The notes under the pieces: model-generated
What the model was told of the DNA's origin: nothing
The model's input: the letters and a program-made list of their open reading frames with translations, nothing else
Databases searched by the model: none
NCBI GenBank assembly: GCA_014695295.1
Contig: JACJNY010000036.1
Coordinates: 1 to 64,000, forward strand
Direction of reading: 5' to 3'
DNA: 64,000 bases
Origin: Microcoleus sp. FACHB-61
Lineage (GTDB): Bacteria; Cyanobacteriota; Cyanobacteriia; Cyanobacteriales; Microcoleaceae
Made by a program: the position numbers and the translations under genes
In this document: one piece after another, positions 8,275-22,106 of the stretch
How positions within the stretch are numbered: the stretch's first letter is position 1
Layout of the letters: each line of letters opens with the position of its first letter

Positions 8275-8310
8275 ATTTTTGATTTTAGATTTTAGATTGA
8301 GGAATTTGAT

Positions 8311-8567
8311 CCCACATTCCGCACCCTCAACTGTCACACGGGGGCTTTTGGTGTTCTTGGTGGTAGTAAGCTTGCTCAACCTAGGTGAGACTAAGCACTA
8401 ATAGTTAAGTCGAATTAGCTGTCAGGCTCAGGATGAACTCAACTTGTCATTAATTTCTGTTAATTGACAATAACTAGGGAGAAAAAACAAGCACTCCCTG
8501 AAAAATCATTAGTTTTTTCCGTTGGGCCTCAGCAGCCCGTGTGACAGTTGAGGGTGCGGAATGTGGG
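8311..8567. repeat. Internal 257-bp segment bounded by 32-bp perfect inverted repeats
   Basis: 8311-8342 and 8536-8567 are perfect 32-bp reverse complements. This segment on its own looks like a MITE, nested at the left end of the larger cassette. It has no open frame. The inner TIR copy abuts the truncation point of the transposase stub, so that copy probably arose when the original IS was rearranged. Confidence 0.75.
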
Positions 8568-8573
8568 CTTTAA

Positions 8574-8705
8574 ACCTCCAGTCTGCATATCAACGCTAGG
8601 TTTTCGACCACCTGTTTTTGGAGCAGGGATTAGTTGTGATAATACTTCCCATTGCTCACAAGTCAGGTTGTTTAGTACGATGGATTCATGGCTCTGGTAA
8701 CTCTG
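8574..8705 (-). pseudogene. N-terminal fragment of an IS5-type (DUF4096) transposase
   Basis: The minus strand reads IVLNNLTCEQWEVLSQL followed by IPAPKTGGRKPSVDM, which matches the beginning of IS5/IS1031-group transposases (LTxEQWxxLxPLIPxxKxGGRxRxxDM). After SVDM the reading frame leaves the family pattern (QTGGLKPT) and runs straight into the TIR at 8567, so all of the catalytic DDE domain is missing. There is a stop just upstream and no clear start codon. It is a decayed remnant inside the cassette, evidence that the element descends from an IS5-like transposon. Confidence 0.7.
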
Positions 8706-8788
8706 TCATACTGAAGTGTTATTTGTAATGGTAGGATAACCGTTACATAAGCTTTTTTACTTTTGAGACATCCACTAAGCAGGTTCCT

Positions 8789-9130
8789 ATGGAAATACCA
8801 AAAACAATTACTCTCAGAGTTGGCGACATGAACACCGTGAGATTACCAGGACTAGGAACGGCCGGTTATGCCTGGACTCACGAGGTTATTGAAAACAGTG
8901 CTTTAATCGAGGTGTCCACTGGGCGAGGGGCGCTTCCAGAAACTGCAGGCGGGAGCCCAAAACCTGGTGAGGCTGTCCTGCCAATTATGGGTGCTAGTGT
9001 AGATGAGCTAATCTATATTCGAGCTCTAAGAGCAGGACGCTCTAGAATTCGCCTCACTCAAAGGGGACCTGGGAAATCTGACCAACCACCATCCAAGGAA
9101 CACATTCTTGAGGTTGATATTAGAAACTAA
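8789..9130 (+). CDS. Chagasin-family (I42) cysteine-protease inhibitor-like protein
   Basis: A 113-residue all-beta protein. It has MEIPKTITLRVGDMNTVRLP, then GLGTAGYAWT, which corresponds to the NPTTGYxW loop of inhibitor family I42, and later a segment YIRALRAGRSRIRLTQRGP corresponding to the R-x-x-W/G loop and final strands. Known I42 proteins block papain-like cysteine peptidases by inserting three loops into the active site. No signal peptide is visible, so it would act in the cytosol. The gene is cargo inside the TIR-flanked cassette 8311-9514. Substitutions in the first loop (GTAGYAWT instead of NPTTGYxW) leave inhibitory activity uncertain. Confidence 0.75.
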   Translation: MEIPKTITLRVGDMNTVRLPGLGTAGYAWTHEVIENSALIEVSTGRGALPETAGGSPKPGEAVLPIMGASVDELIYIRALRAGRSRIRLTQRGPGKSDQPPSKEHILEVDIRN

Positions 9131-9160
9131 ATTTAGAATATTTATCGCTCATAACTTCAT

Positions 9161-9355
9161 TTAACGAACTGAACGCTCAACTGCAAGCTTCCTTTGCTCG
9201 CTGGGTAGCTCAACAAACTTCTCTCTTTCTACTCTCCGATTAGGTCGAGTGATAGATAAACTCGATCTCAGAATCGTCTGAGCCACTTTTCCTTTCATAA
9301 TTGACATCAGTGCTGCAACTTTTTCAGGCAGTTCTTGTTTGTTGTATCTGTGCAT
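9161..9355 (-). CDS. Small hypothetical protein in the cassette
   Basis: A 64-residue frame from ATG 9355 (MHRYNKQELPEKVAALMSIM), basic and mostly helical, with KGKVAQTILRSSL in the middle and a charged end (FVELPSEQRKLAVERSVR). I do not recognise it. It converges on the I42-like inhibitor gene with about 30 bp between the stops. The ATG has no good ribosome binding site. It could be a second cargo gene, a regulator fragment, or not a gene. It lies within the TIR-bounded element. Confidence 0.35.
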   Translation of the reverse strand: MHRYNKQELPEKVAALMSIMKGKVAQTILRSSLSITRPNRRVEREKFVELPSEQRKLAVERSVR

Positions 9356-9520
9356 TTTCAATTAAAAATAATTAATGATAATGACAGCGCACTCTCTCCT
9401 AACTACCTTTCTGACTTAAGTATTATTGCTTAAGTAAATGGCGAGTTGCTCAGCTAATCCACCGCTTTGGTAGCCACAGCCATCCTTGTGACAGTTGTGG
9501 GTGCGGAATGTGGGTTTGAT

Positions 9521-20077: not shown

Positions 20078-20229
20078 CTAAAAATGTGACTTAAAATCCA
20101 ATACGGTTCAGTTAAGGAAAATTGTAGCGAAAATGTTGGGCGGAGTGAAACGGAGGGTTCGTTCCCTCCGGGCCCAACCTACGCACTGATTCGGTCTAGT
20201 TCCTAGACCTCTTTGTCACCCTCCCACAT

Positions 20230-21666
20230 TTAACTGAAAATGCGCTTGAGGGCAGGAATACGAGCCAACACGAAATAATCCAACAGCAGAACGGTGACGA
20301 GTGAAAGTCCTACAAGCGGGAAGGCAATCCCTAAAACAGCAACGATTGCGAGTGGCACTTTCGATCCCTGAACATGGGTGGGCATTGCAGGCGCACCGAG
20401 CCAACCCGTCCCTTTCGGACGACGCTGCCACCACATCACTGTACCACTGACTGAAAGCACAATCAAAATTAAGGATGCAAACAACATCAGTAGTTGATTG
20501 CTCAATCCAAAATATTTTCCCATGTGAATTGAAATTCCCATTGATACGACTTTGGGTACTAACCCGTAATCCTTCCATCGCACATCTGCTAATACTTTGC
20601 CACTGTATTGATCGATGTGCAAAGTGATTTCTTGCGCCGGATTATTTGGAAAGGCCGAAACCGTATACACACCCGTTTTGGATTCTGGAAAACTAACACT
20701 AAATCCAGGGGGTGCGCCTTTGGCTTGAGCTAAATTTACAACAGAATCTAGATTTACGGACGAATCAGCAAGAGTTCGCTCGATAACTTCGTTGTGTCCT
20801 GAATGATGCTCATCTCTAGGCGTACTCGATTTAGGAATTGGTAATTGCTCTACTGCCCAAGGCACAACTTGATTGCCCTGCTGATTGAGGGAGCCTGTGA
20901 GTGTTGTCGATTGAGGCACGTTATCCCGCATTTGTGCAGGGTAGTAGTTCGACAAACGAGCGAAGGTATCTCCCCAAAAACCTGTCCAGGGTAGTCCACT
21001 GAGGATGAGAAAGCCAATTAGCAATACCCCATAAAATCCCGAAACGGCGTGTAAGTCCCGCCAAAATACCCGCTTATTCTGACTCCACAGACGCGGAATT
21101 AATGTTCCTAAAAAATTTACTTTGCCGCGAGGCAACCACAGATACAATCCCGTAATCAGCAGCACAAGCCCCCAACAGGAAGCAAGCTCTACTAAATAAT
21201 CTCCCAATTTTCCGATCATCAGTTCGCCGTGAATCTTGCGTGCGATCGCTTGGAGATTATTGTTTTCATCGCGCTCGCCTAAAATCTTAGCCGTATAAGG
21301 ATTCACGAAAACGGCTAGTGTTCTTTCATCTTTAGTCGCGATCGTCACTTCAGCACTACGATTAGACGCAACGCTCGGCGTAAATTTTGTTACTTTGGCA
21401 TCAGGATAAGTTCGTTGAACAACTGCCACCTGTTGAGTATAAGGCATCACCACATCCGCAGGCTGCACAAACATATTCTGGTAATACATCGCAGCATCTA
21501 ATTGCGGTTTAAACAGGTAAATGATGCCTGTGATTGACAAAATCAGCATGAAAGGAATAACAAACAAGCCTGCATAGAAGTGCCATCGCCAAACGGTGCG
21601 ATAAAAACGATTGCTGGGAGGTTCAGCCACCACTGAAGCGTTCAAAACGCTGTTCAATTTACTCAT
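20230..21666 (-). CDS. PepSY-associated transmembrane protein (PiuB-like)
   Basis: 478 residues with the PepSY_TM layout. It starts YRTVWRWHFYAGLFVIPFMLILSITGIIYLF, then a periplasmic PepSY part (VVQRTYPDAKVTKFTPS ... VFVNPYTAKILGERD). Next come KIHGELMIG followed by further membrane helices with WRDLHAVSGFYGVLLIGFLILSGLPW, a second PepSY segment (LHIDQYSGKVLADVRW) and terminal helices with VMWWQRRPKG. Conserved His residues in the helices suggest haem or metal handling. Relatives are often found with siderophore uptake and act in reductive iron release (known for PiuB/FsrB-type proteins). Its place directly behind an NRPS gene on the same strand hints that the peptide may be a metallophore, but no TonB receptor or Fur box was seen. 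Confidence 0.85.
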   Translation of the reverse strand: MSKLNSVLNASVVAEPPSNRFYRTVWRWHFYAGLFVIPFMLILSITGIIYLFKPQLDAAMYYQNMFVQPADVVMPYTQQVAVVQRTYPDAKVTKFTPSVASNRSAEVTIATKDERTLAVFVNPYTAKILGERDENNNLQAIARKIHGELMIGKLGDYLVELASCWGLVLLITGLYLWLPRGKVNFLGTLIPRLWSQNKRVFWRDLHAVSGFYGVLLIGFLILSGLPWTGFWGDTFARLSNYYPAQMRDNVPQSTTLTGSLNQQGNQVVPWAVEQLPIPKSSTPRDEHHSGHNEVIERTLADSSVNLDSVVNLAQAKGAPPGFSVSFPESKTGVYTVSAFPNNPAQEITLHIDQYSGKVLADVRWKDYGLVPKVVSMGISIHMGKYFGLSNQLLMLFASLILIVLSVSGTVMWWQRRPKGTGWLGAPAMPTHVQGSKVPLAIVAVLGIAFPLVGLSLVTVLLLDYFVLARIPALKRIFS

Positions 21667-22106
21667 TGTCGTTTGCCAAAAGATCGAGAAAAAACTATTA
21701 TGCTACACAAGTATGAAAAATGTCAAAAGACAGGCTGTTAAACAGAGTTGCTGCTTCTGAAGTTTTTAGCCGTCAGTAATCATGATGAAGATTTATTCAA
21801 CAGGGAAAGTAACTAAAGAGCAGTATATTGCAATACCGTTCAGTTAAGGCTGCCTATCTTTTTTTAGCATAAGCGATGCTCAATCTTTACTCCATCAGGG
21901 TTTGAGGAGGGTTGTCATCCGGGATGTTGCACCCTTCTCAATAAGGCTTTTATGAACAGGCAAGATGCCTGTTCCACAAGAAAATTTATCCTTTGTGGAA
22001 CGGGCATCTTGCCCGTTCTTGAGAATGGTGCAAAAGTGAGATGCTCCCCACTTTTGGACGGTCATCCCACAAAACAATCAAAATCATCCCGCAATTATGT
22101 AAGCCC
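21667..22106. other. Spacer between the first NRPS gene and the PepSY gene
   Basis: 440 bp without a gene. The promoter of the PepSY gene should lie near 21670-21760. The right half is a palindromic repeat element (21927-22033) and its flank. An operon link between the NRPS gene and the PepSY gene is therefore possible but not tight. Confidence 0.6.
21927..22033. repeat. Palindromic dispersed element, TTGCACC-type ends
   Basis: Starts TTGCACCCTTCTCAATAAGG and ends TTGAGAATGGTGCAA; inside are GAACAGGCAAGATGCCTGTT and its near mirror. Related elements with the same ends (TTGCACCATTCTC) and the same GGCCTGTTCCACA core occur at 39643-39755, 59091-59206 and 63037-63150. Confidence 0.75.

Follow-up and report, generated by a model that had tools for sequence, protein, structure and literature searches.

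Mobile insertion cassettes, MITEs and composite transposons are known kinds of element. In the accessible text on MIC231A1 (PMC3913671, PMC2266710), the ends of an insertion sequence (IS) enclose a gene for a D-stereospecific endopeptidase that replaces the transposase, and the element is mobilised in trans. Tn6097 of Paracoccus ferrooxidans, as far as the available part of its description goes (PMC3281130), consists of two copies of ISPfe2, a member of the IS1634 family, around a 14-kb core, and transposed with 6-bp repeats. Other families, too, include ISs that carry passenger genes, according to the accessible portion of PMC3129680. Could IS1634-type ends carry a host gene in the same manner, with no transposase between them? 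We describe such a locus from Microcoleus sp. FACHB-61 (assembly GCA_014695295.1, contig JACJNY010000036.1, positions 1-64,000, forward strand; this whole stretch of 64,000 nucleotides is the window). We conclude that positions 8311-9514 are very probably a mobile insertion cassette, a compound element without a transposase whose ends would be used in trans by a transposase of the IS1634 family.

An earlier, sequence-only reading of the window had reported inverted 27-bp ends with one mismatch, the identical hexamer TTTGAT directly outside both, and an intact chagasin-like gene plus a small frame in between. Sequence comparison confirms the ends, which differ by one base and whose similarity reaches 31 nt at 94%, as well as the hexamers; the I42 gene and the 66-aa frame are both open reading frames, and Pfam PF09394 scores above its cut-off. 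A third copy of the end had been overlooked, and it turns the left part of the cassette into a MITE (Table 1). The cassette sits between a phosphate-transporter gene on one side and an NRPS gene on the other (Pfam names). It combines the inverted repeats of a known IS, a passenger in place of the transposase, and a target duplication with an empty site, the features by which a mobile insertion cassette is recognised. No second copy of the whole cassette was found in the own genome and the relatives among the matches listed, so its movement is read from one event.

Table 1. Features of the cassette and its borders, in window coordinates.
Feature	Position	Strand	Remark
Target duplication TTTGAT, left copy	8305..8310	.	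Same hexamer beyond the right end
Whole cassette, 1204 bp, without transposase gene	8311..9514	.	Ends, duplication, empty sites
Left terminal inverted repeat, 27 bp, IS1634 type	8311..8337	+	CCCACATTCCGCACCCTCAACTGTCAC
MITE as left arm, 257 bp, perfect 32-bp terminal repeats	8311..8567	.	
Inner terminal repeat (third copy), closing the MITE on its right	8541..8567	-	Outer flank CTTTAA, unlike TTTGAT
IS5-like transposase N-terminus stub, 44-aa open stretch	8574..8705	-	Truncated close to the MITE border
Passenger gene, 113-aa I42 (chagasin-family) protein	8789..9130	+	Pfam PF09394 and fold match
66-aa frame, no family assigned	9161..9361	-	First codons within the MITE-homologous stretch
Right arm, related to the MITE's left half but diverged	9320..9514	-	9320-9432 aligned with 8392-8505
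Right terminal inverted repeat, 27 bp	9488..9514	-	CCCACATTCCGCACCCACAACTGTCAC
Target duplication TTTGAT, right copy	9515..9520	.	

Did these 1204 bp arrive together? The left flank was compared with 20 loci in relatives. In two of them, G002 and G015, the alignment stops no more than 20 bases from the insertion point; the remaining 18 alignments end at least 33 bases short of it and are uninformative. Both G002 and G015 are continuous across the site (GATTGAGGCATTTCAGAACAG) where the window reads GATTGAGGAATTTGAT, cassette, TTTGATCGCAGT, and the whole stretch 8311-9514 is absent, passenger included. This indicates that the cassette inserted as one unit. At the insertion point both relatives have a single TTTCAG rather than TTTGAT, so the target site had diverged. 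The earlier proposal of a non-autonomous cassette, inserted in one piece, thus stands, on the 6-bp duplication, the two empty sites and ends common to full insertion sequences. As an estimate of chance, the 17 six-base duplications recorded for Oscillatoria nigro-viridis PCC 7112 (G012) form 136 pairs, of which one is alike, so that two unrelated flanks would match in roughly 1% of cases.

The same evidence bears on a different account, namely two independent insertions, one of the MITE at 8311-8567 and one of an element with a solo right end at 9514, with an I42 gene that is not mobile. A complete MITE with perfect ends does lie inside the cassette, and it occurs alone in another genome, G018. 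Taken as a separate insertion, however, the inner MITE has unlike flanks (TTTGAT and CTTTAA) and no target duplication, whereas the outer pair has one, which argues that the last event used the outer ends. Moreover, the stretch from 8567 to 9514 shows no second left end, and the empty sites lack the passenger along with both arms. We therefore regard two insertions as quite improbable and retain insertion as one unit.

The MITE was searched in 58 other genomes, with seven candidate places per genome scored. Among the matches listed, a long MITE match is seen only in G018, a stand-alone copy of 254 bp that is 93% identical and has no target duplication; further copies may exist. The G018 copy (L184, G018:C1:5371242-5378263) lies 6.4 kb from the sole I42 gene found there, which is 41% identical; this nearness is possibly a coincidence. 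The right arm of the cassette, read inward, aligns with the left half of the MITE over about 114 nt at equal distance from the end. The interior alignment scores 62, compared with a maximum of 32 in 2000 dinucleotide shuffles. No such similarity exists between the right half of the MITE and the right arm, for which 837 and 165 of 2000 shuffles were as good under two scorings. Judged by these alignments, the two outer ends of the cassette are inverted relatives of one end type, as in a compound transposon, but with non-autonomous parts.

Which transposase would recognise such ends? The sequence-only reading had named an IS5-like enzyme. It had also pointed to further copies of the 27-bp end, an empty site and a full IS with the same ends as ways to check the proposal; further ends of this type, two empty sites and full elements with such ends were found. 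In the own genome, a search with the 27-mer (two positions free, at most three mismatches) gave 16 matches, three of them in the cassette and 13 outside it; a reversed-pattern control gave none. Relatives hold copies as well. Full elements with such ends occur in G012 and in G046, and they encode IS1634-family transposases: the 566-aa protein of a 2249-bp G012 copy (L055) matches NF033559 with 409.4 bits and its G046 counterpart with 407.4 bits (cut-off 100). The assignment covers these two scanned proteins, and the reading of frames covered L055, L056 and L057. The G012 copies are spread over chromosome and plasmids, and 17 of the 18 paired copies examined show an exact 6-bp target duplication, like the cassette. 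Two G046 copies (L057, L104) have none. Members of the IS1634 family, in the available text of PMC2266710, make duplications of 5-6 bp, have ends of the form C-----YT and are typically 1500-2000 bp long. The end sequence CCCACATT fits this consensus. The G012 copies, at 2247-2250 bp in 17 cases and 3202 bp in one, are somewhat above the typical size. Besides the transposase, the 3202-bp copy (L056 4532-7733) contains further frames, including a DDE_3 endonuclease (107.7 bits), and is probably a nested IS. Two IS1634-type ends also stand back to back in a 55-bp near-palindrome (L054 7011-7065), a possible minimal element.

An IS5-like mover has one point in its favour, the IS5-like N-terminal fragment inside the cassette. 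That fragment is real, as the earlier reading held, but very short (44 aa), and its match to Pfam DUF4096 (E 0.005) is below the family cut-off; its 33-aa core has no Pfam match at E 0.001. Over 30 residues it shares 83% identity with a Nostoc plasmid sequence that carries no annotation there, and over 29 residues 55% with a transposase annotated as IS5-family. The fragment lies away from the outer ends, no full IS5 element with the cassette ends was found among the elements read, and the full elements whose proteins were scanned belong to the IS1634 family. It is hardly conceivable that an IS5-like transposase moves the cassette. Because ends and 6-bp duplications are of IS1634 type, the stub is truncated debris beside the inner MITE end.

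The own genome holds traces of an IS1634-type element. Twelve of its further ends deviate from the pattern, in which two positions are free, by a single mismatch. Eleven of these stand 86 bases from a contig end, the picture that a repeated IS leaves when it collapses in a draft assembly. One more end, on contig C20, has three mismatches. Four flank pairings among the 12 share complementary 6-mers (three different ones), which column-wise random flanks equal in about 1% of trials. The cassette form of the end is CTGTCAC, while CTGGCAC stands at the 12 other close ends; in the own genome the CTGTCAC form was not seen on any full IS. The draft likewise yielded no intact transposase gene for such ends. 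The best piece is a C-terminal frame of 261 aa in the one copy that continues past its end, on contig C65; it shares 70% identity with the transposase of PCC 7112 across 247 aa.

Is the cassette with the I42 gene the only one of its kind? A second cassette lies in G018 (L058 4985-12027; G018:C1:1904984-1912026). It is 7043 bp long, has IS1634-type ends with TTTAAG on both sides, and contains GvpK, GvpG, two GvpF/L proteins, a further Gas_vesicle protein and an ArsA-type ATPase. Two more of its frames we take to be a GvpA-like protein and a gvpN-like AAA ATPase. By eye, no transposase is present among its listed frames of at least 80 aa. Within the genus, gvpK was found in one of 29 genomes, G018, and there between such ends. 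Searched with at most one mismatch in 14 bases, G018 shows no full IS with these ends. The flanks of this cassette match stretches of the window that end at 22106 and begin at 20109, so that the two cassettes share an NRPS neighbourhood, each in a different species of the genus. No clean empty site was found for it among the genomes compared. In the own genome and in G002 its left flank is kept through TTTAAG and is followed by other DNA; G011 has neither the cassette nor the extra gene, and its locus has diverged. Between the NRPS and a hydrolase, where G018 has the gas-vesicle cassette, the window carries a gene of 478 aa (20230-21666, minus strand), so that the species differ in the genes found here.

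The gas-vesicle cassette also has to be weighed in a third account, which in part overlaps with the one we prefer: the locus could be the remnant of a larger IS1634-family element, an IS with passenger genes that lost its own transposase. Full elements with such ends exist, and the first 340 bp of the gas-vesicle cassette resemble the PCC 7112 IS end at 71%. Almost all of this stretch is outside the transposase gene, whose start is position 311 of the element, and no remnant of a transposase was detected there by a protein search. In the cassette with the I42 gene, by contrast, nothing beyond the outermost 27-34 bp is similar at E 1e-5 to any of the seven elements compared, and the right arm is MITE-like instead. 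We consider a decayed larger IS unlikely, if somewhat less so than two separate insertions, and keep to the compound element with MITE-related arms.

Paired ends of this type were also recorded elsewhere. Besides the 17 in G012, a 6-bp duplication is present at L058, L102, L105, L107, L108, L109, L103 and one of the four L117 pairings. None is seen at L127 (the one exception among the 18 G012 copies), L142 (G015), L101 (G017), the two G046 copies, the six MITE-sized pairs L110 to L115, the L106 pairings and the other three L117 pairings. The pair at L099 has a 7-bp duplication. Two of these loci, L103 (860-4088) and L099 (647-2034), have the ends CCCACATTCCGCAG with the duplications TTTAAA and TTTGTAA, respectively, and are perhaps another IS group or cargo carriers. 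Two longer pairs were rejected as cassettes: the right end of the 10-kb pair in G018 (L098) is part of a separate MITE, flanked on each side by ATAAAA, and the 4.4-kb pair in G004 (L100) has unlike flanks.

How might the compound element have been assembled? From its anatomy we infer that the MITE would have landed in an IS5-like remnant near the I42 gene, and that a related non-autonomous element would have come to lie on the other side of this gene in inverted orientation. A transposase of the IS1634 family, acting in trans, could then have recognised this outer pair of ends and carried the whole unit of 1204 bp, with its I42 gene, to a 6-bp target. The enzyme, the order of these steps and any benefit drawn from the passenger are our reconstruction.

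The passenger of 113 aa matches Pfam PF09394 with 32.3 bits (cut-off 27.2). Its single-sequence model (pLDDT 73) retrieves ICP/chagasin structures, EhICP2 among them, at all of Foldseek ranks 1-11 (E 5e-5 to 2e-3, TM 0.48-0.56); a second structure aligner gives ICPs Z scores of 7.4-7.7, compared with up to 9.5 for unrelated folds. By profile and modelled fold, then, the passenger is an I42/chagasin-family protein. Does it inhibit proteases? Chagasin-type inhibitors carry the loops NPTTG, GXGG and RPW/F, according to the available part of PMC2607524. Aligned with a solved ICP, the passenger has LGTAG for NPTTG, GASV for GXGG and GPG for RPW. Because these classical loops of a functional chagasin-type inhibitor are mostly altered, we file it as an I42-family protein rather than as a proven inhibitor. 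Homologues in G147 and G036 keep RRPW. In chagasin, as the accessible text of PMC2607524 states, a change of the loop W lowers the affinity for cathepsin L 100-fold and apparently alters the inhibition of cruzipain little. No C1 (papain-family) peptidase was found in the own genome by a search that was positive in three of 14 control genomes; in G036, the I42 gene adjoins a C1 peptidase gene (80.5 bits). The passenger may act against foreign proteases, or have no such role.

Genes of the I42 family are rare in these genomes. Of 196 searched, the own genome included, four of the 195 relatives have one, and in a phylum sample of 386 genomes, at a stricter cut-off, only the own genome and G018 do. 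These I42 relatives are 40-48% identical to the passenger, and none has cassette-type ends within 1.5 kb. Collections of genome contigs, viral contigs and plasmids yielded no I42 relative of the passenger. The third-position GC of the passenger (0.37, compared with 0.45 and 0.50 in the neighbours) is a weak hint of foreign origin. The 66-aa frame is a candidate gene that is not established as such: it belongs to no Pfam, NCBIfam, PHROG or PADLOC family and has no relative in the genome-contig collection. Its sole non-self match in 98 genomes was weak and looks spurious, with internal stops and a longer overlapping frame. The single-sequence model of this frame shows three helices (pTM 0.30).

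Cyanobacteria thus contain two transposase-less cassettes with IS1634-type ends; the passenger is a gene for a protease-inhibitor-like protein in the first and a gas-vesicle cluster in the second. IS1634 elements are therefore candidates to deliver genes in these organisms. Tentatively, and with slightly less than an even chance in our estimate, IS1634-family ends may form a general cargo system of the genus, in which host genes are captured by MITEs and truncated copies and then travel as units. The cargo would then range from one small inhibitor-like gene to a 7-kb gas-vesicle cluster, and a trait such as buoyancy could be gained in one transposition. The cassette itself is a compact two-ended substrate that can be tested.

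In the parts of the open-licence literature accessible to us, we found no description of an IS1634-type cassette without transposase or of MITE-related arms on such a cassette, and none with an I42 or gas-vesicle passenger. How does the locus compare with its closest relatives? From the IS1634 copies of O. nigro-viridis PCC 7112 it differs by one or two bases in the 27-bp ends, and the 6-bp duplications are alike; unlike these copies, it has no transposase and no detected similarity past the ends. The mobile insertion cassette of qnrD, in the available text of PMC3913671, likewise holds a passenger between inverted repeats without a transposase, but its ends are 24 bp long with six mismatches, its duplication is 2 bp and its passenger is a resistance gene. 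TIMEs (PMC4133298), according to the title of their description, are miniature inverted-repeat elements that generate mosaic non-autonomous transposons; they are Tn3-derived. Similar to our cassette, MIC231 of the Bacillus cereus group has inverted IS ends, a passenger and no transposase. Its parent IS231, as far as the accessible sources tell, is of the IS4 family proper with duplications of 10-12 bp, whereas the present ends are of IS1634 type with 6 bp and MITE-related arms; MIC231 was mobilised in trans, while mobilisation of our cassette is predicted from its sequence. In Tn6097, finally, outer IS1634-type ends likewise move a core with 6-bp repeats, but in the available description both flanks are full autonomous ISs, whereas both arms of the Microcoleus cassette are non-autonomous.
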